Of a stretch of 55,829 nucleotides of DNA, positions 31,597-50,922 are shown piece after piece. The first letter of the stretch is position 1, and every line of letters begins with the position of its first letter. The position numbers were made by a program, and so were the translations under genes. The notes under the pieces were generated by a model. It had not been told where the DNA came from, did not search any database, and saw only the letters and a list, made by a program, of their open reading frames with translations. This DNA is from Rhodobiaceae bacterium (GTDB lineage: Bacteria; Pseudomonadota; Alphaproteobacteria; RS24). The stretch covers positions 1 to 55,829 of the forward strand of contig JAHEIG010000009.1 in NCBI GenBank assembly GCA_024639515.1, given 5' to 3'.

Positions 31597-31604
31597 GACA
31601 TCTG

Positions 31605-33663: not shown

Positions 33664-33695
33664 TGGGCGCAGAAATTTTATTTCAGGAGTTCACA

Positions 33696-34987: not shown

Positions 34988-35056
34988 ATAAACACCCCGC
35001 CGCCTGGTCAGGTATGTCGCATTTTGGTCTACCATCTGGTCTACCATAACAGCCAT
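34925..35056 (-). pseudogene. In-frame fusion of integrase start to primase end (deletion remnant)
   Basis: A 43-codon open frame begins MAVMVDQMVDQNATYLTRRR, matching the first ~22 residues of the intact integrase (MVSMVDHMVDQNATYLTRRR). It ends DFRIARACQGQAVYRRELF, matching the primase C-terminus (DFRMARTNRGLEVYRRELF). The junction lies near SDF. This is the scar of a deletion in an older element where integrase and primase pointed the same way. It keeps the integrase Shine-Dalgarno, so a short peptide could be made, but function is doubtful. Confidence 0.85.
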
Positions 35057-35319: not shown

Positions 35320-35678
35320 CTGAAGCAGGGGTCGGAATGGGTTCGGGTGTTAATTGCCCCCCCCCACCCCCAATAGTTTACGGGCGGCGGCTCGGAACAT
35401 GGGGCTTGATTCATGGATCGGTGGAAGCGGCGCGCGCAAATACCAAATCTGAATGCTTTTCTTATCGTTCCTCAGGGGCAATGACCCAGAGGGCTATGCT
35501 GGTTGAAAAAATAGAGAGAATCAGGAAAAAATACAATTTAACTAAAACCTGCGGGGCAGAGTTTTGGGCAATAATAAAATTCAGTAGGGTTACATTCGAG
35601 GCCCTAGATTCACCCCTGCCTTCGAAATTTATCGCATCCGTCCGCACAAGCGGACCGATAAATTTTATAGGCACAAAA
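35320..35678. other. Leader of the primase gene, no separate gene seen
   Basis: This is about 360 bp between repeat A and my chosen primase start. The primase frame stays open through it, so the ORF track begins at 35310. The predicted residues show no domain similarity I recognise and include a Pro run from a C9-A-C5 tract near 35357-35371. I treat it as leader or regulatory DNA. Confidence 0.45.
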
Positions 35679-37940
35679 ATGACTCTGAAAAAGTTGAAAA
35701 TTAGTTTCGGTGATAGCGCCGAGAAACTCGTCGACAATGGCTATGAACCGCTTCCGCTTGCTATTGCCGCGAAACGCCCAATCATCAAAGACTGGACCAA
35801 CCAAGATCTCTGCGATCCCAAAGTTATCGAGCATCTAATGAAAACCTACCCAACGGCTGGCGTTGGCGTGAGATGCGGAAATTTGATTGTGACCGATATC
35901 GATGTGAGAGACCAAGCCGCAAGTCACGCGATCCGAGAACTGGCGATCGAGCACTTTGGCGAGACACCTCTTATCCGCTTTGGGAACAGGCCAAAACAGG
36001 TACTCTTGTTTCGACGAAAAGGAGCTGCCTTTTCAAAGAAGACAACAGCAGCCCTCAGCCTCATGAATACAAAAGCACAAGTTGAGGTCCTTGCAGGCGG
36101 CAGTCAAATGGTGGCTTTCAATATCCACCCTGACACGGGGCAACCCTATGAGTGGGAAGACGAAAGTCCATTGGACGTCCCGCTCGAGGATCTCACCGAA
36201 GTATCCGAAGGGGACATTGACGCCTTTTTGTTGGAGGCTGAGCAGCTGCTTATTTCGGAATTCGGTGCGATTAAGTTAGTCGGTTCAGAAAACAGTTCTA
36301 AAGCAACTAGCGCCTCTACAGGACAGCCACAAAAGCTTGACCTAGCTATGGCGGAAAGTGCCCTGTTAGTGCTCGACCCACAGGATCGTGAAACATGGAT
36401 TAAGGTTGGACACGCGCTAAAAGCAACAGGCAATCCGGCTGCGTTCGAGCTATTCGCCAGTTGGTCGAAGAAAAGGCCGGACGGTTCAGTGCCGCATAAT
36501 TTCCTCTCTGATGAAGACGTGCAGCAAACTTGGGAAGGCATGAAGCCAAATAGAACGGGCATTTCTGCCATTTATGCCGAGGCGAGGCGTCAAGGTTGGG
36601 AGGGCGGCCCTTACCGCCTATCGTCGACCACTCATACCGCTATTGCCCGTTATATTCTTGAGGTCAGCAAAGCAGATGGAACGGGCTATATTTTTGATGA
36701 AGGACATTTATATCAATACGTCGGAAGTCATTGGGAAGAGATAGGCCATAATGAGCAACGCAGAATAGTTCATGAACTAGATGGCCTGCGGGTAGGTAAC
36801 AAAACAATTTCCGCCAATAAACCTTTTATAAATGGTGTGCTCACTGAGCTAGCAGCAATGGCTGAGCAGAAAGGCTTCTTTGAGTGCGCACCGAGGGGTG
36901 TAAATGCCAGAAATGGTTTTGTAGCGATCAACCAAGTCGGTGAGGTAAACTTCCGTCCGCACGACCCCAAGCTGGCCCAGCGCGCCACCCTTGAGATTTC
37001 TTGGAATGGCGGCGATGTAATAGAGCCAATTGGTATTCTGAAGAGCTACCTTGATACAACATTTGGAGACGTTAGCGAAGGCAAGCAGCGTCTTGCTTTG
37101 CAGGTGTTGGGGGTTGCTGCTATGGGAGCCTCTACGATACTCCCTGCCGCAAAGGCCTTTATTCTTCATGGCCCATCAGCTTCCAACGGCAAATCACAGT
37201 TTCTTGAACTGGTCAGAGGTATGGTTCCATCAAGGGTCGTTGGTAACGTGCCCCCTGCAGATTTTAGCAAGGAGCAGGCAGTCGCCGAATTAGTTGGCAA
37301 GCTAGTAAATGTTTGCGACGAGCTTGATGCAGGAAAATCACTCGGCTCAGACCGGTTCAAGGCTCTTGTGACTGGCGATCCTGTCTCGGCGAAAATCGTC
37401 TACCAGAGAGTGTTTAGCTTTGTGCCAAAAGCGTTACACATCTTCGCGACAAATCAGCTTCCGAACTTTTCAGGTGGAGTTGATCCGGGAGTAAAGCGTC
37501 GTTTGATTTCGATCAATTTCGAAAACTCCATCCCAAAGCAGAAACGGATACCTCACATTGCTCAGAAGATTTTAAAGGAACACGGCGAAGACCTTCTAGC
37601 CCTTGCAATTACAGCTGCTGCTGATGTTTTCTCGAATGGTGGCTATTCAATACCTGAAAGCGTAATGAAAGACACGGAAACTTGGTTCTTTGAGGCTGAC
37701 CTTGTTCTTTGGTGGATTGAGGAAGGCGGCCTAGATCGAAATGTTTTTCAAAATGGAATATCGGCGCTAACGCTCTTTGCCGTCTTTAAAGAAGACACTT
37801 CTGACTTAGCAGACCCGAGATACCCCATCAGTCACAGAAGTTTCACCGGTAGACTGAGACAAGCTTTAGCGGGGAATCCAGACTTCAGGATGGCTCGCAC
37901 AAATCGAGGACTAGAAGTGTATCGTCGCGAGCTGTTCTAG
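35679..37940 (+). CDS. Prim-pol / D5-type primase-helicase of a mobile element
   Basis: This is a P4-style replication protein of about 753 residues. The N-terminus is a bifunctional primase-polymerase domain (LVDNGYEPLPLAIAAKRPI) with the catalytic pair in LIVTDIDVRD (D73, D75). A PriCT-2-like region follows at about 225-310 (DRETWIKVGHALKATG). The SF3/D5 helicase has Walker A GPSASNGKSQ near residue 500, Walker B VNVCDELD, and FATNQLPNFSGGVDPGVKRRL. I start at MTLKKLK because the fold begins there. It is AT-richer than its core neighbours. A putative origin lies directly downstream. Confidence 0.88.
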   Translation: MTLKKLKISFGDSAEKLVDNGYEPLPLAIAAKRPIIKDWTNQDLCDPKVIEHLMKTYPTAGVGVRCGNLIVTDIDVRDQAASHAIRELAIEHFGETPLIRFGNRPKQVLLFRRKGAAFSKKTTAALSLMNTKAQVEVLAGGSQMVAFNIHPDTGQPYEWEDESPLDVPLEDLTEVSEGDIDAFLLEAEQLLISEFGAIKLVGSENSSKATSASTGQPQKLDLAMAESALLVLDPQDRETWIKVGHALKATGNPAAFELFASWSKKRPDGSVPHNFLSDEDVQQTWEGMKPNRTGISAIYAEARRQGWEGGPYRLSSTTHTAIARYILEVSKADGTGYIFDEGHLYQYVGSHWEEIGHNEQRRIVHELDGLRVGNKTISANKPFINGVLTELAAMAEQKGFFECAPRGVNARNGFVAINQVGEVNFRPHDPKLAQRATLEISWNGGDVIEPIGILKSYLDTTFGDVSEGKQRLALQVLGVAAMGASTILPAAKAFILHGPSASNGKSQFLELVRGMVPSRVVGNVPPADFSKEQAVAELVGKLVNVCDELDAGKSLGSDRFKALVTGDPVSAKIVYQRVFSFVPKALHIFATNQLPNFSGGVDPGVKRRLISINFENSIPKQKRIPHIAQKILKEHGEDLLALAITAAADVFSNGGYSIPESVMKDTETWFFEADLVLWWIEEGGLDRNVFQNGISALTLFAVFKEDTSDLADPRYPISHRSFTGRLRQALAGNPDFRMARTNRGLEVYRRELF

Positions 37941-38282: not shown

Positions 38283-39731
38283 TTAATCTACCGCCAAATC
38301 AGCCATTGGCGCTTTCCGCTCTGCACCGCCAAATTCATCGGGGTCCAACATCACACGCCACAAAGGTATGCTGGTAGATGGACCAATCGGTGAGCTGGTC
38401 AAAAGTGCATGCAACCTTTCAACGACATCTGATCTTTCCGACGCAAGGTCGCGACTTTCAGTTTCGTCCTGCTTAATATCGTAGAGCTGCAGCGCGCCAT
38501 TATTTCGTTCGATGAGCTTCCATCGTCCGCTGAAGAGTGCCTTGCCGTCCATGCCCATCGTCACGAAATCTGAAGGCACAATCTCCCTTGCTTCGGCCAA
38601 TGCCGACCACATGCTCTTGCCATCGGTCAATTGACCGGTTTTTGCACTGCCGGTCGCGGCTTCCATCAGGGTCGGCAACAAATCAGTGACGTGCAGGCGA
38701 CCGTCATAGTCTGCATCCGTTAATTTGCCCGGCCAATTAATGATGGCGGGGACACGAATGCCGCCCTCTAAAACCGAGTTTTTGCCGCCGCGTAATGGGC
38801 CGTTATCGGCGGCGCCGTCAAACATGTTGGTGCGCATGAATTCCAGAAATCGACCGGGAATGGGAGTGCCGAACAGGCTTTCCAGACCACCTATAAGGTG
38901 ATAGGCAAAATTCGGTAGCAAACGATGCTCGGTTAGGCCGCCATTATCGCTCATGAAAAAGATGAGTGTATCTTCGCGAATCCCTTGCGCGTCAAGCTCA
39001 TCCATCAATTTGCCGATGGCGACATCCATTTCACTGACCATTGCGGCATGCGCTCGCCGTTTTCCCGAAGCAATATGAGCATATTGAGCCAGTGCTTCTG
39101 CCGGTGCCTCATTGGGCAAATGCGGGGCGCCGAGCGCAAGATACAGGAAGAACGGTTTTTCCTTATTGCGATTGCGGACGACACGCACGGCTTCAGCAGC
39201 AAGCAATTGCGTTGTATAGCCTTCATCGCGCGCTGTTATGCCGTCGCGCTGCCAGTCATAATGGCCGCCATGCACATGGTCCCAATAGCCGACACCGCCA
39301 GTCAAATGGCCGTAAAAACTGTCAAACCCGCGCGCATTCGGCAAATGAGCTTTTTTGCGCGGCCCTAAATGCCATTTCCCGGCTAATGCGGTTTGATAGC
39401 CATGTTGTTTCAAAAATTCCGGCAATAATTTGCGATCCAGCGGCAAGCCGTTTGGATTGAGTTTGGAATAGGGGCGCGTCACGCCAAGGCGCAGCGCAGA
39501 TTGACCGGTCAGCAATGAAGCGCGGGTTGGACTGCAAGTCGGGTGGGCGTAAAAGCGCGTTAAACGTTTTCCGGTCGCGGCCAGCCGATCAAGATTTGGG
39601 GTTTTGATTTCACTGCCATTAAATCCGACATCGCGCCAACCCAAATCATCGGCCAAAATGACGATGATATTCGGCTTGGCAAGTGCCGGACTTACCGATA
39701 AGGCAATCAGAAAAATTAATATAAACCGCAT
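38283..39731 (-). CDS. Secreted type I sulfatase (arylsulfatase family)
   Basis: The enzyme hydrolyses sulfate esters in the periplasm. The 482-residue protein starts at MRFILIFL (39731) with AAGGAGG 8 bases upstream; the ORF-track start adds 15 spurious residues. A signal peptide ends near ALAKPN. The metal site is ILADDLGW, and CSPTRASLLTG (Cys66) is the formylglycine signature for aerobic FGE maturation. No FGE gene is in the window. It diverges from a tetR-type gene across a shared operator, and so belongs to the catabolic cluster to its right. The substrate is unknown. Confidence 0.9.
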   Translation of the reverse strand: MRFILIFLIALSVSPALAKPNIIVILADDLGWRDVGFNGSEIKTPNLDRLAATGKRLTRFYAHPTCSPTRASLLTGQSALRLGVTRPYSKLNPNGLPLDRKLLPEFLKQHGYQTALAGKWHLGPRKKAHLPNARGFDSFYGHLTGGVGYWDHVHGGHYDWQRDGITARDEGYTTQLLAAEAVRVVRNRNKEKPFFLYLALGAPHLPNEAPAEALAQYAHIASGKRRAHAAMVSEMDVAIGKLMDELDAQGIREDTLIFFMSDNGGLTEHRLLPNFAYHLIGGLESLFGTPIPGRFLEFMRTNMFDGAADNGPLRGGKNSVLEGGIRVPAIINWPGKLTDADYDGRLHVTDLLPTLMEAATGSAKTGQLTDGKSMWSALAEAREIVPSDFVTMGMDGKALFSGRWKLIERNNGALQLYDIKQDETESRDLASERSDVVERLHALLTSSPIGPSTSIPLWRVMLDPDEFGGAERKAPMADLAVD

Positions 39732-39770
39732 GATAAATGCCTCCTTTTGAGTAAAGGGAAGGTTAATTCC

Positions 39771-39803
39771 TGACATTTGTCAATTAATTATTGACAAATG
39801 TCA
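39771..39803. promoter_or_regulatory. TetR-type double operator between sulfatase and tetR
   Basis: TGACATTTGTCAA and TTGACAAATGTCA form perfect 13-bp inverted arms around a 7-bp spacer. Each arm is itself a TGACA-n2-TGTCA dyad. The right arm contains the -35 hexamer of the tetR promoter. Its place between divergent genes makes it the natural binding site of the adjacent TetR-type repressor. Confidence 0.8.
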
Positions 39804-39824: not shown

Positions 39825-40469
39825 ATGGAAAAAGCCATCGCAAAATTATCTGCCAGTCAAAAGCCAACAAAAGGCGAGAAAGCCGTTACATCGTTAATGG
39901 ATGCTGCACTCGCCTTGCTGGGCGCAAACCAATCAAGTGAGTTAACCCCCGGTCTTATTTGTCAGCAAGCGGGTATGAAGCGACCCAGCTTCTATACTTA
40001 TTTCAACTCAGTGGATGAGCTTTTGGATAGTTTATGTGCTCGCGAAGTCGACAATTTCGAGGCAACTTATTTGCGCCATCATGCCGAAAATGACAGTCCT
40101 TTATCGCGGATTGTACGAATACCGCTTTATATTTACGCCCGCGCGCAGCTAGAAATAGGTTGGTTTAAGGTCATCAGTCATTCCGTGACATGGAAAAGAG
40201 AGCAGCGCGAAAAGCGCTTGACGCATTTGCATGCCGATGTGAGAGCAGCTATCGCTTCCGGCCAATTGAAAATGAGCGATGGTCAAATAGATGGGTTTAT
40301 TTTTCTCTATCTGGCGGCAATCTCGCTGCTCGTCGATAGCCAAAATGAGCGGGCGGTCGCAGACGGGCCGTCGACCGAAGCCCTCAAATTGCTTTTCAAA
40401 GGCTCCGGTGCGGATATGGAAACGGTTGAACGCTTGCTGGCTGCCCCGCTTGAGGAGCTTCTAGAATGA
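39825..40469 (+). CDS. TetR-family repressor of the sulfatase/monooxygenase cluster
   Basis: This is a 214-residue regulator. The N-terminal helix-turn-helix includes LTPGLICQQAGMKRPSFYTYFNSVDELLDSL, followed by a helical ligand domain. The ORF track starts at 39798, inside the operator. I choose MEKAIAKL at 39825 because the predicted promoter would start transcripts there; there is no usable Shine-Dalgarno for either. The stop overlaps the monooxygenase ATG (ATGA), so the two are coupled. It probably senses a sulfate ester or aromatic intermediate; this is inference. Confidence 0.85.
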   Translation: MEKAIAKLSASQKPTKGEKAVTSLMDAALALLGANQSSELTPGLICQQAGMKRPSFYTYFNSVDELLDSLCAREVDNFEATYLRHHAENDSPLSRIVRIPLYIYARAQLEIGWFKVISHSVTWKREQREKRLTHLHADVRAAIASGQLKMSDGQIDGFIFLYLAAISLLVDSQNERAVADGPSTEALKLLFKGSGADMETVERLLAAPLEELLE

Positions 40470-42085
40470 GTGATGTCATTATCGTCGGCGGCGGCCCAAG
40501 CGGTATGATGGCTGCCTTACTTTTGGGCAAGCACGGCCTGACCAGCCATATTGTTGAGCGGCGCGAAACGATTTTGCAGGCTCCGCGCGCCCATGCGGTA
40601 AACGGCAAAACCATAGAAGTTTGCAGTTCGGCGGGCATTGCGGCAGATGAGATATATGCCGCAGGCATGCCGCCATCGCGCGGGGGCATGGTCAATTTCT
40701 GGTCGACCCTTTCGGGCACTTATTTGGGCGGACTGCCTTATGAGCGCCAAGACGCGGCAGTGCTTGATCTGGTGTCATACAGGCTGGTCAACATTTCGCA
40801 GCCGCAATTTGAAGCCATATTAGAGCGCCATGTCGAGGCCAATGACATGATTACCCTGTCGCGCGGCGTAACGGCGGGGGAACTTGTTGAAAATGATGAT
40901 GGCATTACGCTGGCAATTGAAGGCGCCGATACGAACCGGCTTCAGGCCGATTATTTGATTGCGGCTGATGGTGCCGGGTCCAGTCTGCGCCGTCAAATGG
41001 GCATTGAAATGGAAGGGCCTGACGCGCTTCAGCATTTCATCACAGTTCATTTTCACGCCGATTTATCGGAGCTTATCGGTGACAAGCCGGGGATTTTGCA
41101 TTGGATTATGGAGCCGTCCGCCAGCGGCACCCTGATTTCTTATGATGACGGTCAAAATTGGGTTTTGATGCATGGCTGTCCGCCCGGCCAGGAAGACCCG
41201 AAACTCTATGATGAGGCGCGTTGTATGGCTTTGATTAACGCAGCACTCGGCCGCGATGATATTGAGGTCGCGATGAAAAATGTTAGCCCGTGGGTGATGA
41301 CCGCTCAGGTCGCTGCCCGTTACCGTCACGGGCGCGCTTTTTTACTGGGCGATGCGGCACATCGTTTTCCGCCGGCCGGTGGACTTGGGCTCAATACAGG
41401 CATGGGGGACGCACAAAACCTCGCCTGGAAATTGGCCATGGTCAAAAACGGCATGGCCGATGACTGCTTGCTCGACAGCTATGGGAGTGAGCGCAAGGCC
41501 GTGGCCGAAACCAATAGCGCGCAAAGCATGGAAAACGCCATGCGCATGTTTGAATTGATTGGTTTTTTGCTAGGGCCTGAACCGGAAAATATGCAAGCGC
41601 ATTTCGATGAGATTTGTTCTAATGCTGCCAATTCCCCTGAACTGGCCGCCGCAATAGCCGCGCAAAAAGCCCATTTTGACAGCCTACGCCTGCAGGTCGG
41701 CTATAGCTATGGCAACCATGATGATACGGGCTTGGGCATTGACGATTACCGTCCACTTTTCCGCATTGGCGATTGTGTGCCGCACCACAGAATAGCAATA
41801 AATGGCACTGATATTTCGCTCACCGAATATCTGCAAGGGACGCAGTTTACCCTTTTGGTCAGCCGACATCATCAGCCCCCAAAAGGCGAAATCGCGCAAT
41901 TAAGAATATTGCATGACGGCACGGATTTCACCGGTGATTGGTCGGCCGGACTTGCGGAATATGATGCGGATTTGGCCGCACTGATGGTACGCCCTGACGG
42001 ACATATTGCGGCGCATTTCCATGCTGCTGATTTATCGCAAGATAATGTTGCGCAGGCATTAGAGAAAAATTTGCGAGGGGCATAG
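40466..42085 (+). CDS. FAD-dependent aromatic monooxygenase (PheA/TfdB/MhpA class)
   Basis: This is a class A flavin hydroxylase of 539 residues. IIVGGGPSGMMAALLL is the FAD fold, LIAADGAGSSLRRQMGI the DG motif, and GRAFLLGDAAHRFPPAGGLGLNTGMGDAQNLAWKL the GD motif. A C-terminal thioredoxin-like domain (about 440-539), as in phenol hydroxylase and TfdB, follows. It would hydroxylate a phenolic or polyketide-like substrate with NAD(P)H and O2. It is translationally coupled to the TetR gene and followed by an SDR gene after 9 bp. Confidence 0.88.
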   Translation: MSDVIIVGGGPSGMMAALLLGKHGLTSHIVERRETILQAPRAHAVNGKTIEVCSSAGIAADEIYAAGMPPSRGGMVNFWSTLSGTYLGGLPYERQDAAVLDLVSYRLVNISQPQFEAILERHVEANDMITLSRGVTAGELVENDDGITLAIEGADTNRLQADYLIAADGAGSSLRRQMGIEMEGPDALQHFITVHFHADLSELIGDKPGILHWIMEPSASGTLISYDDGQNWVLMHGCPPGQEDPKLYDEARCMALINAALGRDDIEVAMKNVSPWVMTAQVAARYRHGRAFLLGDAAHRFPPAGGLGLNTGMGDAQNLAWKLAMVKNGMADDCLLDSYGSERKAVAETNSAQSMENAMRMFELIGFLLGPEPENMQAHFDEICSNAANSPELAAAIAAQKAHFDSLRLQVGYSYGNHDDTGLGIDDYRPLFRIGDCVPHHRIAINGTDISLTEYLQGTQFTLLVSRHHQPPKGEIAQLRILHDGTDFTGDWSAGLAEYDADLAALMVRPDGHIAAHFHAADLSQDNVAQALEKNLRGA

Positions 42086-42094
42086 GAGAGAATT

Positions 42095-42874
42095 ATGGAT
42101 TTGGGACTGAAAGGGAAGAAGGCCATTATTTGCGCTTCATCACGCGGACTTGGCTTTGCGTGCGCCACGGCTTTGGCGCGAGAAGGGTCGGATGTAATCA
42201 TTAACGGGCGCGATGTCGAGGCTCTAAAAGCGGCAGAAGCGGAGATCGCAGAGCTGCAAGGCGGCAGTGTCACCTCCGTCATTGGTGACCTCAATACACA
42301 AACTGGCCGTGATGCAATTTTGCAGGCTTGCGAGGCGCCTGATATTCTTGTCACTAATAATAATGGCCCATCGCCCGGCACTTATGACCAATGGGATGAA
42401 GCCATGTGGCAGGAGGCTTTCGCCGCCAATATGATTGCCCCCGCACTGCTCATTCGCGCCGTCATTGACGGCATGCGTGCCCGCAAATTTGGCCGTATTG
42501 TCAATATCACTTCGGCCATGGTCAAATCCCCGCATCCCAATATGGGGCTTTCCACATCCGCCCGCTCGGCACTGACGGCGTTTTCCAAAGGGCTGTCGAA
42601 GGAAGTCGCGAAGGATAATGTAACGATAAACAATATGCTGCCCGAACGTTTCGACACGCAGCGTCAGCATCAAATGGCCGAACTGGCTATGGCATTAAAA
42701 AATATAACTTACGAAGAGGCGCGCGCTGAAATGGAAGCGACCATCGCAGCCGGTCGCCTTGGCCGACCGGATGAGTTTGGTGACGCATGTGCTTTTCTAT
42801 GCAGTGAACAGGCCGGTTTTATTTCCGGCCAGAATTTACAATTGGATGGCGGCTCTTATGTCGGCCTGATTTAG
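42095..42874 (+). CDS. SDR-superfamily protein lacking the catalytic Tyr-Lys
   Basis: This is a Rossmann-fold protein of 259 residues resembling 3-oxoacyl-ACP reductases. Visible are CASSRGLGFACATAL, a NNNGPSPG in place of NNAG, and the C-terminal FLCSEQAGFISGQNLQLDGG. Where the family has YxxxK this protein reads STSARSALTAF, so Tyr is Ser and Lys is Arg. It fits the known BKR-like SDR subgroup with an imperfect catalytic tetrad. An AGGAG lies before the ATG. It may act as an unusual reductase or as a binding partner in the pathway. Confidence 0.82.
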   Translation: MDLGLKGKKAIICASSRGLGFACATALAREGSDVIINGRDVEALKAAEAEIAELQGGSVTSVIGDLNTQTGRDAILQACEAPDILVTNNNGPSPGTYDQWDEAMWQEAFAANMIAPALLIRAVIDGMRARKFGRIVNITSAMVKSPHPNMGLSTSARSALTAFSKGLSKEVAKDNVTINNMLPERFDTQRQHQMAELAMALKNITYEEARAEMEATIAAGRLGRPDEFGDACAFLCSEQAGFISGQNLQLDGGSYVGLI

Positions 42875-42884: not shown

Positions 42885-43301
42885 ATGTATACGAATTTGA
42901 TTGCCCATATATTGGTCAGCGTGGTGGCCGTAATGATTATGATTGGCCCGATGGTAGCTGATTTCAACCGAACGCATGCGACCAATCCGCTGTGGACGCC
43001 GCATGCACGCTTTCACGTTGTTTGGCAGGTTTTGACCAATTCGACTTTGGCTTTACTCACGCTTTACTTCATTTGGGGCTCAGGCCATCTCATGCTCGGC
43101 GCGCTGATGAATTACATCTGGATTGCCACTTTTTTTGCGACACTCGCCGCCATGCCGATGTTTGAGGGCGCGCTGGCCGATGAAAACGGCATTAAGCCAT
43201 TTATCTGGAAGTTCGGCGATAAGATGGTGAAAGTCGATACCAACCTTTTCGGCGCTTGCATGATGACTGTATTGAATACAGCTGCATTGGTCATCAGTTA
43301 G
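42885..43301 (+). CDS. Small four-helix membrane protein of the catabolic cluster
   Basis: This is an unrecognised 138-residue integral membrane protein. Four hydrophobic segments are visible at about residues 5-23, 50-65, 70-90 and 120-137. Between the first and second is a conserved-looking THATNPLWTPHARFHVVWQ stretch with two His residues. Such HARFH proteins may match a DUF family (possibly DUF6640), which I cannot confirm. A GAGG lies before the ATG. It sits between the SDR and FAH genes of one operon. Confidence 0.7.
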   Translation: MYTNLIAHILVSVVAVMIMIGPMVADFNRTHATNPLWTPHARFHVVWQVLTNSTLALLTLYFIWGSGHLMLGALMNYIWIATFFATLAAMPMFEGALADENGIKPFIWKFGDKMVKVDTNLFGACMMTVLNTAALVIS

Positions 43302-43312
43302 AGGCAATGAAA

Positions 43313-44359
43313 ATGGTTCTGCAAATTATCGGCCTTGCTTTCGGTGCTCTCATAATTGTTTTTGTGGCGCGCAGCTTTTACGTTTCACAACCGCTTTTTA
43401 AGGAGAAAATAAGGCAAGCCCCCGACAGTGCTTTTTCCTTGGCTCCGGTTGAGCAAGCGCTGAGTTTTGCGCGAACGAAAAACGGCAAGAGCCTGCTGGT
43501 GGTGGCAATGAATCGCGAAGGCGTGCGCGCCATTGACCTTGCCGCAGCAACAGCGTCTCAAGGCAGCGAGCCGTTGGATTTTTTACGCTCTTTGGGCGAT
43601 GAAAAATTGCGCGCGGTGATGAACAGCGACGCGACGATTTACAATTGGCGGGATCTGGATGTGCCGTTTGATTCGCAAAGCGGCATTATTGCGGCGGGGG
43701 TTAATTTTAAGGCCCATGCGGAAGAGACCGGCCTCGAAGACGGGCCGTTTCTGTTCCCGAAACTGTCAACGCCGAGCGCTTGGCAGGCGCCGGTCAAAAA
43801 ACGCACAAGGCTCGATTATGAGGTCGAGCTCTGCGCTGTAGCCATTGAGGATATTGCGCTCGGCAAAAGCGGGCGCTTCGCTTTTGTGCTGTGTAATGAT
43901 TTGACCGACAGATGGGCGCTGTTGCGTCATATTAATCTTAAAAAGCCAATGGGGCGCACCGGTTTTCCTGAGGGCAAGGGCGGCGATGGCATGCTGCCAG
44001 TCGGTGCCATTCTCATCGTGCCGCGCAAACCGGATTTTTACCAACAGATTGAATTGGGGCTGGCGGTCAATAATCGACTGCGCCAGCGCGACAGTGCCGG
44101 CATGATGATTTGGGATGCGCCATCAATCGGGCAAAAAGCTCTAGCGCTTTGCGATAAAGATTTTTATCTGCATGGCGAGGTTATTAGGCTGGCAGAATGT
44201 GGCGATTTAAAAAAAGGCACAGCCATATTGCTTGGCACACCAGAGGGCGTGGCCTTTCAAATGCCTAACATATGGATGCCGTGGGCTTACTTGCGCCAAG
44301 GTGATGCGGTAATGGCTTTCGCCTCGCATTTGGGTGTTTTGGAAACCCAAGTAGAATAA
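43313..44359 (+). CDS. Membrane-anchored fumarylacetoacetate hydrolase-family protein
   Basis: An FAH-fold hydrolase or decarboxylase domain of about 280 residues follows an N-terminal membrane helix (VLQIIGLAFGALIIVFVARSF). GVNFKAHAEET, the metal ligands in DYEVELCAV, and LGTPEGVAF fit the FAH superfamily, whose members cleave beta-diketones or hydrate dienoates after ring opening. I start at ATG 43313, 8 bases after GAGG; ATG 43307 is also possible, and the track's 43256 start overlaps the previous gene. The membrane anchor is unusual for this family. It is the last gene of module 1. Confidence 0.8.
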   Translation: MVLQIIGLAFGALIIVFVARSFYVSQPLFKEKIRQAPDSAFSLAPVEQALSFARTKNGKSLLVVAMNREGVRAIDLAAATASQGSEPLDFLRSLGDEKLRAVMNSDATIYNWRDLDVPFDSQSGIIAAGVNFKAHAEETGLEDGPFLFPKLSTPSAWQAPVKKRTRLDYEVELCAVAIEDIALGKSGRFAFVLCNDLTDRWALLRHINLKKPMGRTGFPEGKGGDGMLPVGAILIVPRKPDFYQQIELGLAVNNRLRQRDSAGMMIWDAPSIGQKALALCDKDFYLHGEVIRLAECGDLKKGTAILLGTPEGVAFQMPNIWMPWAYLRQGDAVMAFASHLGVLETQVE

Positions 44360-44388: not shown

Positions 44389-44690
44389 TAACCCCCAATT
44401 ACCCATGTTTCACGGCCCGTGTGACCCGGAACTCGGGTCTTTGCTTGGTAGACCATATGGATGACCACAAATAGGATTTGCACGAGCCCCCAAAAGTGCT
44501 AACCTATTGATATTATTGAAGGTCAGGGCTTGCTAGGAGCCTAGGAAAGGCATCGAACCCATCTCCTGGGCACCATTTTCAAGTTTCAAGCGCCGTGTTT
44601 CACGGGACAAGCCATTGATCTTCAGACATATTTGTTTGAGGAGCTGAGATTATGGTTTCATGGTAGACCAGATGGTAGACCAAAATGCGA
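44389..44690 (+). repeat. att-like junction copy B (inverted partner of copy A)
   Basis: In order this block holds the pre-core arm, core TCTCCTGGGCACCATT (44562-44577), hairpin CCGTG-TTT-CACGG, integrase Shine-Dalgarno and integrase start codons ending AAAATGCGA. One base is missing relative to the intact integrase start (TTTCATGG against TTTCTATGG), so the first frame breaks. The repeat ends at 44690, and the TAA of the next gene (minus strand) occupies 44691-44693. Confidence 0.92.
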
Positions 44691-44963
44691 TTATGAGATC
44701 AAAAAAACCAAAATGCATGAGATGGCTATGAGCCATAGCAGAAAGCCATATCGCAAAAAGGCCGGGGCAAGCTTCAATTCCATAAACTGATAGCCGATAA
44801 CCCAAATTTTGACACCGGCCGTTAGCAAAATTGCCGTGGTGGTGGCGTCGGCCATTTTCTGCTCACCCTCGGCGAGCCACCAGGCCAAGATGGTTACCGC
44901 AACCAGCAGAAACCATGCCCATGTCATCAAACTTAATCCAATAATTTGTTTTGAATCGTTCAT
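44691..44963 (-). CDS. Cytochrome c oxidase subunit IV / NorF-like membrane protein
   Basis: This is a 90-residue protein with three hydrophobic segments, in the style of prokaryotic COX4 and NorF. It starts MNDSKQIIGLSLMTWAWFLLV and contains VIGYQFMELKLAPAFLRYGFLLWL. The ORF-track start adds 21 residues that overlap the upstream gene; I use ATG 44963, which leaves a 5-bp gap after the subunit III gene. Pairing with a subunit III homologue is the norE-norF arrangement. No catalytic oxidase subunit is nearby. Confidence 0.72.
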   Translation of the reverse strand: MNDSKQIIGLSLMTWAWFLLVAVTILAWWLAEGEQKMADATTTAILLTAGVKIWVIGYQFMELKLAPAFLRYGFLLWLIAISCILVFLIS

Positions 44964-44968
44964 AAAAC

Positions 44969-45538
44969 TCACACCAGATAGAACAGGGCAAACAGCATGA
45001 TCCACAGCAAATCGACCAAGTGCCAAAAAATGGCCCCACTTTCCAGCCCGCGTTGTGTTTCCGGGGTGAACGGGGCTTGCGATTTCTTGAACAGAAAGCT
45101 GAGTATGACAACGCCGACAAACACATGAATTGCGTGAATGGCCGTGAACACGAAGTAATACATGAAAAAATCATTGGTCATCGGGGTCATCCCGTCAGAG
45201 ACCTTGGCATTCCACTCAAAGACTTTGTTTATGAGAAATATAACACCGGACAAAATCGCCAGCCGGAACCAAATGCGATTATCTCGGCCATCGTCTAATC
45301 GAAAACGTTCAACACCGATCGCCACGAAAAAAGAGCCGGTGAGCAGAAGCAGTGTATTAGCAAGGCCGAACCTCAAATCAAGCGTGCCGCGCGCGCTTGA
45401 AAACACGCCTCCCTGTTCCTGATTGCCAATGGCAATCAGAATGAAAAACAGGGAAAAGACCAGCAAGTCCCCTGTTACAAAGGCCCAGATACCGGGTTCC
45501 CCCGGTATCCGGCTTTGCGCTTGGCTTTTCTCATTCAC
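44969..45538 (-). CDS. Cytochrome c oxidase subunit III / NorE-like protein
   Basis: This is a 189-residue, five-helix member of the heme-copper oxidase subunit III family. It starts with IPGEPGIWAFVTGDLLVFSLFF, has FVFTAIHAIHVFVGVVIL mid-protein, and ends ESGAIFWHLVDLLWIMLFALFYLV. These are close to NorE. NorE and NorF assist nitric oxide reductase in denitrifiers, but no norCB is present here. A linked oxidative pathway is more likely, given the flavin oxidase and DUF2236 neighbours. Confidence 0.85.
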   Translation of the reverse strand: MNEKSQAQSRIPGEPGIWAFVTGDLLVFSLFFILIAIGNQEQGGVFSSARGTLDLRFGLANTLLLLTGSFFVAIGVERFRLDDGRDNRIWFRLAILSGVIFLINKVFEWNAKVSDGMTPMTNDFFMYYFVFTAIHAIHVFVGVVILSFLFKKSQAPFTPETQRGLESGAIFWHLVDLLWIMLFALFYLV

Positions 45539-45561
45539 AGGATAAACAGCCTTTATAAGCT

Positions 45562-46290
45562 CTAGCTATTTTCGTCATTGGCGATCTTGATCATCACCCA
45601 GGACATAATGGCTATCCAAGCAAAGAATGCGATGAAGGGCAGATACATGGCAACAATGCCGTGCCAGGAAAACGGCCCGTCTTTGAAAAATATGACCATT
45701 TGGCCCGGCGCGAAGAGCAAAGCCGCCCATAAGTTTACATAAGCCACCCAGCGCGGAAATGGTTCTCTTCCCGGCTCGGAGAAAAAGATAGGCAGGGCTA
45801 TTAACACGCACCAGCCGCCAAATAAGGGCACAGAGAAAACTGCCAAAAAGTAGGCAAAATCAGCCCACATGAGCAATATAGATGGTGCGTAGGTATCCGG
45901 TCGGAAAACCATCAGCGACCAAGCAAAGGCCACCAGCAAAGCGATGGTGGTGCCACCTGCTGTAAATACGAGTTGCACGTACGAAAACACCGGGCTTGTT
46001 TCGAAGCGCCGGGTTTGCGCTGCAATACCTGCGCCGAATGTGCCGAAAAGGGCAAAAGAGGCGATCATGAAAATCGAGCCTACCCGCATATTGAGCAGGT
46101 TTTCATTGACCTTTGCGACGACCTCAGAAGGTGTGTCACTGGCATTCAGGAGCGGCGGCAACATGCCCCCTAACCAAACGCCGCCTATAATAAATAGGAT
46201 AATTGCCGCATATCCGGTGTAGCCGCAAAATGCCAAGGATTTCCTCGACAGGCTATCTTGCGCCAATATGTTGCTCGTTATTTCACTCAT
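45562..46290 (-). CDS. Unrecognised six- or seven-helix membrane protein
   Basis: This is a 242-residue polytopic membrane protein I do not recognise. Hydrophobic segments appear near residues 25-45, 70-88, 105-128, 140-165, 185-202 and 210-235. Aromatic-rich pieces such as GGWCVLIALPIFF and MYLPFIAFFAWIAIMSW are notable. GGGAG lies 6 bases before the ATG. It lies between the NorE-like and flavin oxidase genes on one strand with short gaps, so it likely works with them at the membrane. Confidence 0.6.
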   Translation of the reverse strand: MSEITSNILAQDSLSRKSLAFCGYTGYAAIILFIIGGVWLGGMLPPLLNASDTPSEVVAKVNENLLNMRVGSIFMIASFALFGTFGAGIAAQTRRFETSPVFSYVQLVFTAGGTTIALLVAFAWSLMVFRPDTYAPSILLMWADFAYFLAVFSVPLFGGWCVLIALPIFFSEPGREPFPRWVAYVNLWAALLFAPGQMVIFFKDGPFSWHGIVAMYLPFIAFFAWIAIMSWVMIKIANDENS

Positions 46291-46321
46291 TTTTTTCTCC
46301 CCTAGTAAGAATGGTGATTTT

Positions 46322-47644
46322 CTAAAATTCCTCCGCCCGATATCGGAGCAAATTCATTGCCGCTCTCTCGCCACTATTTACAGCGGCCTCTACTCCGGCT
46401 TGGGAGAAATAATCTCCCGCCAGTTTTATGCCTTCCGGTAATAGAGAATGAACCTTGTCGAGCATTTTGTAGTGACCCGGTTTGGCTATGGTCAGCCCGT
46501 TTTTGTAACGGAACAAATGAACAAAGCTTGGCTTTTGTGCCTGGCCAAAAGCGGCATTTACCTGTTTGACCGATTCCTCTTTTATGTCGTCATCGCTCAT
46601 ATCATTAAGTGCTGGCGTGTTGAAATAGACCCCAACCATTTGCGCCCCCTTCGGGACCGATGCCGGCAAGCGCCGTCCATGCAAAACCATAGCCCCAACA
46701 TTGCGAACGCCACCTTCGCCAACGGGCAACACAATATCTGTTGGATAATCGGGCCATGGGTCCTCGTCATACCCCACGGCAACATGGGCATATTCGGTGT
46801 AATGCGTACTCATGAGCCGATGATAGGCATCCTCCGACACATGCTCTTTCAAAAGGTCGGCAGCAATAAAGGCTTCCGTCGCAATGATAATGCTGTCGAC
46901 CAGAACACTGCCGCCCGTATAAGAAACGCGCCACATTTGACCTTCTCGCGTCAAACCTTCAACCGGGGTCGAGACATGAATCTTGTCGGAAGAAACATTG
47001 TCCAAAAACCATTCATTGATTTGCCCAATGCCACCCTCCGGTGATGACAATGCGATTTTGTGCCCCTGCTTCATCAGTGCCTTGGGAAAGGGAGTTGATA
47101 ATTCGCGTAATGGCACTGCATAAAGAAAATCCATAATCGGGCGCATGACATATTCAAATGCCTTGTCACCCAAGTTTGCACGCGACCAATCTTCCAAATT
47201 TTCATCACCGTCATATCTGGCAAGCTGCGATCCGTCGAACGGGTTGCGCGCGCTCGGCGTAAAAAGCAAGCGCAGTCCGGTCACGATTATGCGGAGTTTG
47301 TCTCGCAGCCTTAGCGTTGGAACCTTTAGAAAGCTAAAAAACGAACCAAGCCGAACCGGGTATCTGGACCTATCATCATCCATAAGCTCAGATGCACCGG
47401 TCCAGGGCACCAATTGTTTTTTTCGTCCCATTTCTCGCAGCAAGGCCATGGTGCGCGGATAGATGCCTCCCATAAGAAACAGAGCTCCAGTTCCCAGATT
47501 GTAACCGTCATCTCGATGGAGCTGTTTTGTACGCCCTCCAACTTTCTCGGCCGCCTCAAACAGGTCAAAATCAATTTTGTTTTTCTGCAAGGTATAGGCA
47601 GCTGCACAACCTGCAGGCCCGCCCCCGATGATTGCCACCTTCAT
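46322..47644 (-). CDS. FAD-dependent amine-oxidase/protoporphyrinogen-oxidase-like protein
   Basis: This is a flavoprotein of about 440 residues in the amine oxidase superfamily. The N-terminal Rossmann motif is VAIIGGGPAGCAAAYTL, followed by KVGGRTKQLHRDDGYNLGTGALFL. The C-terminal FAD piece is IKLAGDYFSQAGVEAAVNSGERAA. These fit HemG/HemY-like and phytoene-desaturase-like oxidases. The track's first codon is a TTG at 47650; I use the ATG at 47644, which follows the TetR stop closely. The substrate is unknown, with an isoprenoid or porphyrin-like compound possible. Confidence 0.82.
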   Translation of the reverse strand: MKVAIIGGGPAGCAAAYTLQKNKIDFDLFEAAEKVGGRTKQLHRDDGYNLGTGALFLMGGIYPRTMALLREMGRKKQLVPWTGASELMDDDRSRYPVRLGSFFSFLKVPTLRLRDKLRIIVTGLRLLFTPSARNPFDGSQLARYDGDENLEDWSRANLGDKAFEYVMRPIMDFLYAVPLRELSTPFPKALMKQGHKIALSSPEGGIGQINEWFLDNVSSDKIHVSTPVEGLTREGQMWRVSYTGGSVLVDSIIIATEAFIAADLLKEHVSEDAYHRLMSTHYTEYAHVAVGYDEDPWPDYPTDIVLPVGEGGVRNVGAMVLHGRRLPASVPKGAQMVGVYFNTPALNDMSDDDIKEESVKQVNAAFGQAQKPSFVHLFRYKNGLTIAKPGHYKMLDKVHSLLPEGIKLAGDYFSQAGVEAAVNSGERAAMNLLRYRAEEF

Positions 47645-47646
47645 GC

Positions 47647-48291
47647 TCAAATTCCGTTCTTAGAAATTGCTTTTGTTTGCAAGGCTCCTGCAACGAGTTG
47701 ATGGAGAAAAACCTCAATATCTATAGCTGCCGGAGTGGTAAGCTTCATTTGCGCCGCCATTTGTCCACCGCCGATGATGATATACGCGGCAATTTCTGGA
47801 TCTAAATCTGGCGATAGTTCTCCGCTTTTTTGGCCAACGCTAATGATTTCACAAAACAAATTTGCAACTCTGCTTTGCAAGTCTTCGTAAAGCGTCCAAG
47901 TGGCATTCTCGAAAGCTGTGCTCCAATCCAGCCAAATTTTCATGATTGCAGAATCTAGCTCGACGGTGTTTGAAAATGCTCGCGCCACATTCAATATTTT
48001 ATCAAAAGCAAGTTCATCCTCAGCGGCGGCGTTCCAAACAATTTCCGTTATACGGGTATCGACCAGTTCGAGTACCGCCTCCGTCAGGCTCTCTCGTGTA
48101 TCGAAATATGCATAAACGGTTGGAACGGAAACACCGGCCTTGAGAGCAACGTGTGAGCGACGTGCGCCTTCAATGCCGTGATTTACATATATTTCTATTG
48201 CACAGTCGATGAGTTGTTCACGTCTTTTTTCTGGCGAAAGTTTCGGAGCTCTCTTGGGTCGATTGGTAATTTTCAGGTTTTGCTGGCTCAC
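47647..48291 (-). CDS. TetR-family regulator of module 2
   Basis: This is a 214-residue regulator with an N-terminal helix-turn-helix (RRSHVALKAGVSVPTVYAYFDTRESLTEAVL) and a helical ligand domain. The start is GTG with GGAAG upstream. It leads the minus-strand gene row and diverges from the DUF2236 gene, with a small palindrome between them. Like module 1, this module thus carries its own TetR at a divergent junction. Confidence 0.87.
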   Translation of the reverse strand: MSQQNLKITNRPKRAPKLSPEKRREQLIDCAIEIYVNHGIEGARRSHVALKAGVSVPTVYAYFDTRESLTEAVLELVDTRITEIVWNAAAEDELAFDKILNVARAFSNTVELDSAIMKIWLDWSTAFENATWTLYEDLQSRVANLFCEIISVGQKSGELSPDLDPEIAAYIIIGGGQMAAQMKLTTPAAIDIEVFLHQLVAGALQTKAISKNGI

Positions 48292-48321
48292 AATAACTTC
48301 CTTGATTGAGTTGCATTATAC

Positions 48322-48335
48322 TGATACTAATATCA
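48322..48335. promoter_or_regulatory. Candidate operator between tetR and DUF2236 gene
   Basis: TGATA-CTAA-TATCA is a perfect 5-bp inverted repeat in the 100-bp divergent gap. It is short, so chance occurrence cannot be excluded. Confidence 0.4.
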
Positions 48336-48391
48336 CTGAAGAAAGTTCATCACAACCGGAATTTTCGCCAAAATAAACGATTGGAGGGAGG

Positions 48392-49435
48392 ATGCTCGAG
48401 GTTCTAGATTCTGAAAAGCAGTCACGTTGGTGGGTTGAGGAAAAAATAAAATCTTACGACCCGGAAACTGAGTATTCAGAAATTGTGTCGCTTATGGCGC
48501 AGTATCAGTTGGATGAGTTTACGCTCAATTTTTTGGTTACCATTCTGACAAGCTATACTCTTAAGCCGTCGCATATGGCTGAGACCCTTTCCATAACAAA
48601 CAAAGGATTGCGTCGGCCCAATCAACGTATGCAGGACACTTTGGATTTTTTCTGGATTTGGCACGTGTTTGGCCCTGACGCAGAGGAGACCAAAAAATCT
48701 CTTTCGAGATTGAACAGATTGCACGCAGGGGTCGCCCGCATGTTGCCAGGACATTTTGAGAATGGTGACGATTTCATATATGTGCTTGGTCGGCTATTTG
48801 TGCTGCAAGATCGATTGCTCAAGAACCTGAACATAGTTGGCATGAATCCCCATATAAAGGCGGCGCTGTTCAATTTCGCCAGAGCATTGTCCAAACATTT
48901 TCTAACTGAAGGCGACAAGCCGGTTGAGGGATTTCCGGACACTCCGGAAGCGCTTGAGGCATTTGTTGATGACTGGGAAAGCAAAAATCACGGCTTTTCG
49001 CCGGTGAGTCGCGACATCGTGAACTCTTTTGTTCACGCTTTTGGAGACAGATGGTTTTCGCACCCATTCAAGCCAATCGGAAGGTGGGTTTGCATCGAGG
49101 CACTTGAGGACAGTTTTTTAGAGCATGTTCGCATTAAGCCCCTAAAGGGTATTCGTAAATGGTTGGCGCGCGGCGCTCTCAAAAGTCTGTTTTTCTATAA
49201 AACAAGAATTGCTGCAGATAGAAAAACATCGGCCTATGACGAGCGGGTATTATTGAGCAAAAAAGAATGTGCGGAGATGGATGAGCGCGCCGTTAGGCGC
49301 GTGAGCGAGTTTGGCTGGACAAAGGGAGGAAAGGATTCCGTGGGCCTAGGAGATGGACCGAGCTTGGCTGGAAAATGCCCTGTCATGAGCCATACCCAAA
49401 CATCAAGCGAGGTCAAACGCCCAGTTTCCAACTAA
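48392..49435 (+). CDS. DUF2236 (MpaB / rubber-oxygenase-like) protein
   Basis: This is a 347-residue, mostly helical soluble protein with no signal peptide. The segment SRLNRLHAGVARMLPG, followed by DDFIYVLGRLFVLQDRLL, resembles the conserved R-x-x-x-x-H region of the DUF2236 family. That family includes the latex clearing protein Lcp and MpaB, both heme-dependent oxygenases of isoprenoid chains. GGAGGGAGG lies before the ATG. It is divergent from TetR and paired in the island with oxidase-like membrane subunits. Assignment is moderate because similarity is judged by eye. Confidence 0.6.
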   Translation: MLEVLDSEKQSRWWVEEKIKSYDPETEYSEIVSLMAQYQLDEFTLNFLVTILTSYTLKPSHMAETLSITNKGLRRPNQRMQDTLDFFWIWHVFGPDAEETKKSLSRLNRLHAGVARMLPGHFENGDDFIYVLGRLFVLQDRLLKNLNIVGMNPHIKAALFNFARALSKHFLTEGDKPVEGFPDTPEALEAFVDDWESKNHGFSPVSRDIVNSFVHAFGDRWFSHPFKPIGRWVCIEALEDSFLEHVRIKPLKGIRKWLARGALKSLFFYKTRIAADRKTSAYDERVLLSKKECAEMDERAVRRVSEFGWTKGGKDSVGLGDGPSLAGKCPVMSHTQTSSEVKRPVSN

Positions 49436-49480
49436 TATGGGCCGGCAATGCCGATGACCGCGACTGAATAGCTATAAGAA

Positions 49481-49583
49481 GGCTTGCTAGGGGCCTGGGG
49501 TCGGCATCGAACCCATCTCCTGGGCACCATTTTCAAGTTTCAAGCGCCGTGTTTCACGGGACAAGCCATTGATCTTCAAGCAT
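49481..49583 (+). repeat. att-like copy C downstream of the integrase
   Basis: This 103-bp block holds a diverged pre-core arm, core TCTCCTGGGCACCATT (49516-49531), the B-type hairpin and the tail CTTCAAGCAT, then breaks off. It is inverted relative to tRNA-Leu copy D and lies 18 bp from the integrase stop, so C and D frame the integrase gene alone. Confidence 0.88.
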
Positions 49584-49601: not shown

Positions 49602-50759
49602 CTAAATTATAATTTTCTGAAGCCACTTTTGCTTCATGGCAAGGTCATACCCATCGCCATATGAGTGGCCTATGCCGGAAGTGCTCCAACCACCTATGGC
49701 ATCAGAAATGTCTGACGGACACTCAACCGCTCTTAAACGATCACGCAGAGCATGCCGGAATGAATGAACCACGCAACCTTCAGGAACTCTGGGCTTCAGC
49801 CATTTGTTAAGCGCAGCGCTTGCTGAGTTGGCATTGCATTTAGACGCACTGGTGTAATTCGGGAAGGCAAATCGCCCCTCAATCTGTACGATCCGTTCCG
49901 CAGCCCAATAGCTGTATCCGATAAGTGGCACGAGCCTTTCGCTTGATGTGGTCTTAAGCTTGCGCCATGGGTGCTCATGAATGATCAAGTGGGGTATTTC
50001 AGTATCAAGAACGATATCCTCTTTTATCAAACCCAGTGCTTCTGAGAGGCGGAGACCCGTATCGCTGATTAGAGCAAGTAGATGGCGGTTTGGATCGTCC
50101 ATCGCTTCACATTCCGCCTGCAATATTTTGATTGTTTTTACCGGCATGGTTGGCCGGGTTTTTGCCCTGTCATCGGCAGGAATGAATATTTTTGCGAATG
50201 GATTGGTGTTTGGCAGTCCGTGTTCTTGGATGGCCAAGGAGACAATAGATCGTATTGAAGCGAAACACCTCTTTACCGAAGAAGAGGCAAGGCCTCTTTG
50301 AATCAAATGATCCCGGAAACTTGCCCCATCGGCAGAAGTCAGCTCACTGATAGAGACATCGCCGCTCAAAACCATCAATTGCTCAATGTTACGCCGCGCA
50401 GTCCGCTCAAACGTTTCCCCCTTCCCTTTGCCCTTAAGACGCAGGTAGAGGTCGAGAGCTTCGGATAATGTAATCGATGCGGCCGGTTGAGCTGGGCTCT
50501 CCAGCGTCATCGAATGTTGTGAAATTATCTCTTCGAGCTTCATACCGTTCCAGAAGCTCTCCAGCTTTTCTGACAAAACAATTGCCGAAGCGATAGCCTT
50601 GCGGCGCGACTTCGTTTTAAGCGACACGACAATTCGCTCTTTGCCCAGTCGCTTTTGAAGTTCCTTCGGAATACGCCGCGTATAGTAGTAATGCACACCC
50701 CGACGCCTGGTTAGGTATGTCGCATTTTGGTCTACCATATGGTCTACCATAGAAACCAT
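49602..50759 (-). CDS. Tyrosine recombinase (site-specific integrase) of the tRNA-Leu island
   Basis: This phage-type integrase of 385 residues has the N-terminal DUF6538-like YLTRRRGVHYYYTRRIPKEL and a SAM-like core-binding domain. The catalytic domain has Arg237 (DTGLRLSEAL), His332-x-x-Arg335 (HSFRHALRD), GGWS at 356-359, and Tyr367 in GHSYGDGY as likely nucleophile. GAGGAG lies 8 bases before the ATG. It begins 76 bp after the tRNA-Leu gene on the same strand, so tRNA read-through may drive it. It looks intact and could act on all four att copies. Confidence 0.93.
   Translation of the reverse strand: MVSMVDHMVDQNATYLTRRRGVHYYYTRRIPKELQKRLGKERIVVSLKTKSRRKAIASAIVLSEKLESFWNGMKLEEIISQHSMTLESPAQPAASITLSEALDLYLRLKGKGKGETFERTARRNIEQLMVLSGDVSISELTSADGASFRDHLIQRGLASSSVKRCFASIRSIVSLAIQEHGLPNTNPFAKIFIPADDRAKTRPTMPVKTIKILQAECEAMDDPNRHLLALISDTGLRLSEALGLIKEDIVLDTEIPHLIIHEHPWRKLKTTSSERLVPLIGYSYWAAERIVQIEGRFAFPNYTSASKCNANSASAALNKWLKPRVPEGCVVHSFRHALRDRLRAVECPSDISDAIGGWSTSGIGHSYGDGYDLAMKQKWLQKIII
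50729..50748. promoter_or_regulatory. Candidate arm-type integrase site in the int start region
   Basis: This palindromic GGTCTACCATATGGTCTACC covers the first integrase codons. A close relative (TGGTAGACCATATGG) occurs in the pre-core arms of copies A and B, on the other side of the core. Paired arms around a core are typical of integrase attP sites. The assignment is inference. Confidence 0.4.
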
Positions 50760-50833
50760 GATCTCTGCTCCTCAAACAAATATGCTTGAAGATCAATGGC
50801 TTGGACCGTGAAACACGGTGCTTGAAACTTGGG

Positions 50834-50849
50834 AATGGTGCCCAGGAGA
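50834..50849 (-). mobile_element. att core D at the tRNA-Leu 3' end
   Basis: TCTCCTGGGCACCATT is shared with cores A (35131-35146), B (44562-44577) and C (49516-49531). A and D are direct repeats about 15.7 kb apart and would bound the excisable unit. B and C are inverted relative to D. Confidence 0.85.
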
Positions 50850-50922
50850 AGACTCGAACTTCCACACCCTTGCGAGTACTAGCACCTGAAGCTAGCGCGT
50901 CTACCAATTCCGCCACCTGGGC
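50836..50922 (-). tRNA. tRNA-Leu (anticodon CAG), integration target
   Basis: This 87-nt tRNA has acceptor arms GCCCAGG and CCTGGGC and the D-arm GGCGGAATTGGTAGACGC. The anticodon stem-loop GCTAGCTTCAGGTGCTAGT gives anticodon CAG. It also has a long variable arm, T-arm TTCGAGT and encoded CCA. It closely follows the E. coli tRNA-Leu(CAG) pattern. Its last ~14 bases are repeated as the att core in copies A, B and C. Confidence 0.97.

Follow-up and report, generated by a model that had tools for sequence, protein, structure and literature searches.

The window analysed here, the whole 55,829 bp contig JAHEIG010000009.1 of the genome GCA_024639515.1 of a marine Rhodobiaceae bacterium, contains six compactly spaced open reading frames (ORFs) at positions 44691–49435, all present in the ORF list of the window. 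Five lie on the minus strand in the order tetR, flavoprotein gene, TM6, COX3-like and COX4-like, and the sixth is divergent from tetR. The TetR regulator (47647–48291; Pfam TetR_N, 4.8e-7) is first in the operon and is followed by a FAD flavoprotein of the amine oxidase/protoporphyrinogen oxidase/desaturase superfamily (46322–47650; Pfam Amino_oxidase, 1.3e-34), a polytopic membrane protein of 242 aa, here called TM6 (45562–46290), a COX3/NorE-like membrane protein of 189 aa with five transmembrane-like segments (44969–45538; Pfam COX3, 3.4e-11) and a COX4_pro/NorF-like membrane protein of 90 aa (44691–44963; Pfam COX4_pro, 3.3e-12). The flavoprotein is likely to start at the ATG at 47644, and the COX4-like gene most likely starts at the ATG at 44963 rather than at the TTG at 45026 of the listed ORF; with these starts, the gaps in the five-gene operon are 2–31 bases. 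The divergent gene on the plus strand (48392–49435) encodes a relative of trans-anethole oxygenase (TAO; PDB 8S1J) and is referred to as TAO-like. An operator-like palindrome, TGATACTAATATCA, lies between tetR and the TAO-like gene at 48322–48335. Promoter and terminator scans found nothing above chance.

A first-pass annotation, made from the sequence alone, had described this region as one compact module, and the comparison with related genomes bears this out. Positions 44682–49439 align at 89% DNA identity to a genome of another genus in the same family (G397), where the copy is chromosomal and lies between tRNA-Leu(CAA) and tRNA-Arg(CCG), and positions 44824–49472 align at 86% to a genome of a third genus (G394), up to the end of the G394 contig. 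The order of all six genes is thus kept in three genera and at three genomic sites, although the module is patchy: of the 28 genomes of the order, 3 carry it. Each of the six reading frames is intact, and purifying selection acts on all of them, with dN/dS of 0.06–0.17 (0.06–0.07 for TM6, 0.09–0.13 for the COX3-like gene and, against G397, 0.16 for the COX4-like gene). The palindrome TGATA-N4-TATCA occurs once in the window, where 0.02 occurrences are expected, and each of the three genomes has exactly one copy of an extended 21-nt form, located every time in the tetR–TAO-like intergenic region. Because the order is kept at 86–89% identity in two other genera, the genes are under purifying selection and the palindrome is common to all, the six genes are one unit. 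It is very improbable that a TAO-like/TetR/flavoprotein unit and a group of membrane proteins simply came to lie side by side with no joint function. Each is found alone elsewhere, as such an accident would allow, but the order, close spacing and selective constraint seen in three genera at three sites argue against it, as does the recurrence of flavoprotein–TM6 adjacency in actinobacteria.

TM6 itself has no Pfam or NCBIfam match, and a PDB search with its confident AlphaFold model (pLDDT 93.5) yielded no similar fold at E≤0.001. A scan of the contigs of 84,980 genomes, seeded with a three-sequence TM6 alignment as the 16-sequence alignment was too diverse, gave 78 loci, and plasmid and class searches contributed further loci to make 97 in all. 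Residues R130, D144, R180 and K203 are conserved in TM6 together with a PRW...FFK-GPFAW-G signature, parts of which also seeded the scan, so that its conservation is overstated. A role as a heme protein was ruled out for TM6, as it has no conserved His. The complete triad of TM6, COX3-like and COX4-like genes was found in 69 of the 97 loci and in several phyla, the carriers being actinobacterial, proteobacterial, Binatia-type and myxococcal genomes. Of the 71 loci that have both TM6 and the COX3-like gene, 57 have them side by side on the same strand by simple gene calls. The distances of the two proteins are correlated (0.81, with a maximum of 0.22 over 2000 permutations), to which the common descent of the hosts contributes. 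TM6 is the marker and the defining core of the triad. Its earlier description as an unrecognised membrane protein agrees with the lack of a Pfam match, and is corrected in that the protein defines a conserved group elsewhere.

In 11 loci, all from mycobacteria or Nocardia, TM6 is accompanied by relatives of the flavoprotein instead of the COX pair, with 10 directly adjacent same-strand pairs, and in one Hydrocarboniphaga locus TM6, COX3-like, COX4-like and a flavoprotein relative are found together. Among the 97 collected loci, none has a TAO-like gene near TM6. Tandem runs of two or three TM6 genes were seen in three loci (L057, L063 and L088), and COX-like partners are lacking in the first two. 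The host genome carries a second, resident triad on another contig (C44; locus L026), beside an MFS transporter gene. The TM6 of this copy is 93% and 85% identical to relatives in Rhodobiaceae metagenome-assembled genomes, which places the host close to these.

COX3- and COX4-type proteins are familiar subunits of respiratory oxidases. The COX3 and COX4_pro matches at the locus both exceed the Pfam cut-offs, and the COX3-like protein retains the COX3 motifs and matches PDB subunit III chains (best 2.5e-16). In NCBIfam it scores nearest to aa3/bo3 subunit III, with all scores far below the cut-offs, so that 'NorEF-like' is, judged by these profiles, a label only; of the earlier NorE/NorF-like naming, the COX3 and COX4_pro families stand and the specific name does not. 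A single-sequence query for COX1, which a divergent NorB could escape, had no match in the window or in any of the 97 loci. The sole COX1 of the host genome sits on another contig, and the earlier view of the subunit III- and IV-like genes as orphans with no catalytic subunit is upheld. No second PF00115 protein, and hence no nitric oxide reductase, was found in the genome (85.6% complete). The pair might be spare subunits that join the cytochrome oxidase of the host or a nitric oxide reductase and alter its activity, the part proposed for NorEF in denitrifiers, and the retained motifs together with a COX1 elsewhere in the genome are compatible with this. However, the genome also encodes its own full-length, normal COX3, no candidate nitric oxide reductase was found, and the pair accompanies TM6 in 69 of the 97 loci and never has a COX1 nearby. 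We consider a spare-subunit role unlikely.

The genes adjoining the triad belong mostly to lipid, steroid or aromatic catabolism. They encode short-chain dehydrogenases, acyl-CoA dehydrogenases, enoyl-CoA hydratases, CrtO-like and AveC-like proteins, aldehyde dehydrogenases and acyl-CoA ligases, and also luciferase-type proteins, CoA transferases, P450s, ecdysteroid-kinase-like proteins and Rieske proteins. In the mycobacterial loci, CrtO-like, AveC-like and RPE65 proteins and acyl-CoA enzymes surround the TM6 and flavoprotein relatives. RPE65-type cleavage enzymes made up 2 of the 69 neighbours scanned in mycobacterial clusters, and their occurrence with the flavoproteins is a pairing parallel to that of flavoprotein and TAO-like protein in the window. 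Nine mycobacterial regions (L066, L067, L069, L072, L085, L087, L103, L108 and L112) contain multiple TM6 and flavoprotein copies with CrtO-like, AveC-like and RPE65 proteins, and are possibly undescribed clusters for terpenoid or steroid degradation. On a plasmid of Streptomyces NBC_00080 (L033), a TM6 gene is found a short distance downstream of a mycofactocin cluster and of two flavin-type genes. A mycofactocin link, prompted by these mft genes and by an mftR-annotated gene in Novosphingobium pentaromativorans, was ruled out, as mftC (radical SAM) is absent from the host genome and from the remaining class-sample genomes that carry the triad.

The module genes therefore recur outside the host genome, in G397 and G394 and, as the triad, in 69 loci that have no COX1, which answers the co-occurrence check proposed with the first-pass annotation; profile support for DUF2236 and the COX families answers its other check, so that neither of its two grounds for refutation holds. 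With catabolic neighbourhoods and no COX1 in the 97 loci, the non-respiratory oxidative role proposed there is probable. In the open-access literature, no paper was found on a COX3/COX4 pair with a TM6-type membrane protein; as far as that literature goes, neither the triad nor the six-gene combination has been described, in agreement with the earlier impression, while each protein family is known. The principal rival explanation treats the triad as an accessory for detoxification or stress, such as a pump, flippase or membrane stabiliser, that is induced with the catabolic genes and stands outside the oxidation chemistry. TM6 has no cofactor signature and its fold has no PDB match, efflux is commonly under TetR control, and the triad adjoins very different enzymes (P450, Rieske, LLM and acyl-CoA), all of which would suit an accessory of this type. 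On the other hand, COX3 and COX4 folds are not known transporters, and the direct adjacency of TM6 to flavoprotein relatives in mycobacteria suggests a functional partner. We regard the accessory role as doubtful, though it deserves more weight than the other alternatives.

The divergent protein alone matches TAO (8S1J) at E=3.3e-24 over residues 13–234, and a family profile of the protein and nine relatives matches it at 4e-111 over profile positions 10–306. Pfam supports COX3, COX4_pro and Amino_oxidase at the locus, and MPAB_Lcp_cat (the DUF2236 family) is barely reached (8.5e-5; 23.1 bits, the cut-off being 23.0); among 10 relatives, only 3 match this last family at 0.01. The assignment of the protein as Lcp/MpaB-like has accordingly been replaced, its nearest relative being the aryl-alkene-cleaving TAO. 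Residue H111 is invariant in ten TAO-like relatives; the heme b of Lcp and MpaB is bound by a conserved His, and heme binding here is putative. TAO cleaves trans-anethole to p-anisaldehyde and also converts isoeugenol and its relatives to aldehydes, and has been described as flavin-using without a recognisable flavin domain (PMC3774712). Joint mutation of W38, T43 and Y55 abolished its activity (PMC3774712). As these positions hold V, Q and V in the window protein, we have filed it as a relative in the TAO family with what appears to be a different active site, and not as a TAO orthologue. Plasmid relatives of the TAO-like gene adjoin genes for aldehyde dehydrogenases, ring-hydroxylating and O-demethylation enzymes, 4-hydroxybenzoate monooxygenase and P450, neighbourhoods that fit aryl-alkene degradation. 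A FAD gene found beside a TAO-like gene in Rhodococcus opacus 1CP is unrelated to the window flavoprotein.

The window flavoprotein matches protoporphyrinogen oxidases in the PDB (best 7e-16) and, weakly, HpnE and CrtI in NCBIfam. On these profile scores it is assigned to the amine oxidase/protoporphyrinogen oxidase/desaturase superfamily, outside every curated equivalog. A search across 399 genomes of the phylum found only the protein itself, and none was found in viral contigs. The earlier proposal was a membrane-linked oxidative pathway for an isoprenoid or similar lipid, and the link to oxidative catabolism of lipids and aromatics supports its general outline, with isoprenoids as just one possibility within the hydrophobic alkenes and aromatics. 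A module for isoprenoid or rubber-like degradation by Lcp/MpaB chemistry could draw on the threshold match to MPAB_Lcp_cat, the CrtO-like and RPE65 proteins that accompany the mycobacterial relatives and the weak HpnE and CrtI matches. Against this, the nearest solved relative of the oxygenase, TAO, acts on phenylpropanoids, and the module is accompanied, in the window and in G397 alike, by an aromatic-ring hydroxylase, an FAA hydrolase and a sulfatase. An aromatic or alkenyl substrate is for these reasons more likely than an isoprenoid, and we see little prospect for the Lcp/MpaB form of the proposal.

Our leading interpretation, which we hold tentatively, is that the locus is a TetR-controlled catabolic module in which the flavoprotein and the TAO-like oxygenase oxidise a hydrophobic substrate and the triad serves as their non-respiratory membrane partner. 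The substrate or a relative of it would act as inducer, on which TetR would leave the TGATA-N4-TATCA site and both divergent transcripts would start. From the chemistry of the two families, dehydrogenation by the flavoprotein at the membrane would then introduce into the substrate a C=C bond that the TAO-like oxygenase would split with O2 to give carbonyl products; dehydrogenases of the island or host could process these further, together with the ring hydroxylase and FAA hydrolase. TM6 and the COX3-like and COX4-like proteins may form a cofactor-free membrane complex that replaces the missing oxidase core, provides a docking site for the flavoprotein and deals with the lipophilic substrate, O2 or protons. 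Since COX3 has no redox centre in known oxidases, these roles are favoured over electron transfer.

Several observations weigh against this interpretation. TAO residues W38, T43 and Y55 correspond to V32, Q37 and V49 (mapped by the spacing W, +5 T, +12 Y), and the reaction may therefore not be that of TAO. TM6 lacks conserved His and Cys residues, which leaves no evident cofactor or route for electrons. The number of distinct catabolic families per locus was higher than in 20 control regions of 18 kb (mean 1.7 vs 0.45; Mann–Whitney p=7e-5), but the families were picked from the same loci and the controls came from four genomes only, so that the enrichment is indicative only. TM6 is found without the COX pair in 26 of the 97 loci, and a more distant genome from another alphaproteobacterial family (G027) has the oxygenase, tetR and flavoprotein genes in the same divergent layout (68, 54 and 71% protein identity) without an adjoining triad. 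The two halves of the module can therefore work apart.

With more reserve, we suggest that the triad could be a new membrane complex, in which accessory subunits of heme-copper oxidases, without the catalytic core, serve flavin oxidases and oxygenases acting on hydrophobic substrates in several phyla, and which has moved among marine bacteria on tRNA-Leu islands. If a constant triad without a catalytic core does work in catabolic neighbourhoods, the COX3/COX4-type fold has a second job, and genes annotated as cytochrome oxidase subunits in many genomes would mislead respiratory annotation. The six-gene unit is a small, self-contained and regulated system in which this second job could be tested.

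The module is cargo of an integrative island at a tRNA-Leu gene, with an integrase and a primase-helicase; the first-pass annotation had the gene content right and missed both this mobile context and the TM6 plus COX pair as a conserved core. The G+C content falls from 0.52–0.60 before 34 kb to 0.48–0.53 at 34–50 kb. A tyrosine recombinase gene (49602–50759, minus strand; Pfam DUF6538, 3.5e-16, and Phage_integrase, 8.9e-8) adjoins tRNA-Leu(CAG) at 50836–50922, and a gene for a primase-helicase with Prim-Pol, PriCT_2, D5_N and DUF5906 domains (35310–37940, plus strand) lies at the other end of the island. One att copy is at the 3' end of the tRNA gene (50771–50849, minus strand). Repeats of the same type, made up of the tRNA-Leu 3' end plus downstream sequence, flank the module on the left (44520–44640) and on the right (49481–49583), both on the plus strand as direct copies (93% over 103 nt), and another is at the far end of the island (34987–35188, minus strand; 160 nt, 94% to 50690–50849). 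In two related genomes (G391 and G150) an empty site was found, with an RNase D-type gene (window 24897–25604) directly beside tRNA-Leu(CAG) and then the same downstream genes, which indicates that about 25 kb of the window was inserted at this tRNA gene.

The other cargo genes are for a sulfatase (38283–39776, minus strand; Pfam 2.2e-63), which has a homologue beside the module in G397, an FAD_binding_3 aromatic-ring hydroxylase (40466–42085; Pfam 2.7e-79, Rng_hyd_C 1.2e-8), a short-chain dehydrogenase (42095–42874) and an FAA hydrolase-fold protein (43256–44359; Pfam 1e-14), the last three on the plus strand. A DUF6640 membrane protein gene (42885–43301) lies between those for the dehydrogenase and the FAA hydrolase. 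An inverted repeat of about 300 bp (34987–35312 and 44396–44690) encloses the primase, sulfatase and ring-hydroxylase cargo, and with such repeats at both its ends this 9 kb segment could invert. A further 9 kb (25604–34987), also absent from the G150 and G391 site, includes genes for a TonB receptor, a TPR-sulfotransferase-like protein, a BCCT-type transporter, MarR and an NADP oxidoreductase. Part of this TonB receptor gene recurs in G394, next to the module. A short ORF at 34925–35056, with an integrase-like start and an end like the primase C-terminus (YRRELF), is a remnant of an older element. Other tRNA sites, in G329, G397 and G018, bear the same att-type repeat, and at tRNA-Leu and tRNA-Arg sites of related genomes (L147, L148, L129 and L151) it is conserved with unrelated cargo, a pattern which suggests that this group hosts a family of tycheposon-like elements.

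Like tycheposons and P4-like satellites, the island has a tRNA-targeted tyrosine recombinase, a Prim-Pol/D5 replication gene, metabolic cargo and repeated tRNA fragments, the features on which the likeness is judged, but here several att copies in both orientations occur within one island. The flavoprotein shares the FAD-dependent amine oxidase superfamily with protoporphyrinogen oxidase, phytoene desaturase and HpnE, and differs in falling far below all equivalog cut-offs (93 of 560 bits for protoporphyrinogen oxidase). The TAO-like protein belongs, by sequence, to the same family as TAO of Pseudomonas putida JYR-1 (8S1J), with a single domain of about 350 aa and relatives that adjoin aldehyde dehydrogenase genes. 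Identity to TAO is about 25%, V, Q and V stand at W38, T43 and Y55, and the partners here are a flavoprotein and a membrane triad rather than aldehyde dehydrogenase or vanillate-type demethylase genes. TM6 approaches DUF4386 (PF14329), a family of unknown function, in that 4 of 16 TM6 relatives match it (best 2e-6), while the window TM6 and most relatives do not. Finally, the COX3-like and COX4-like genes resemble NorE/NorF of nitric oxide reductase operons and subunits III and IV of aa3/bo3 oxidases in their COX3 and COX4_pro families and in forming an adjoining pair in the same order. In contrast to both of these systems, no COX1 is found nearby in any of the 97 loci, TM6 is a constant third partner and the neighbours are catabolic, not respiratory.

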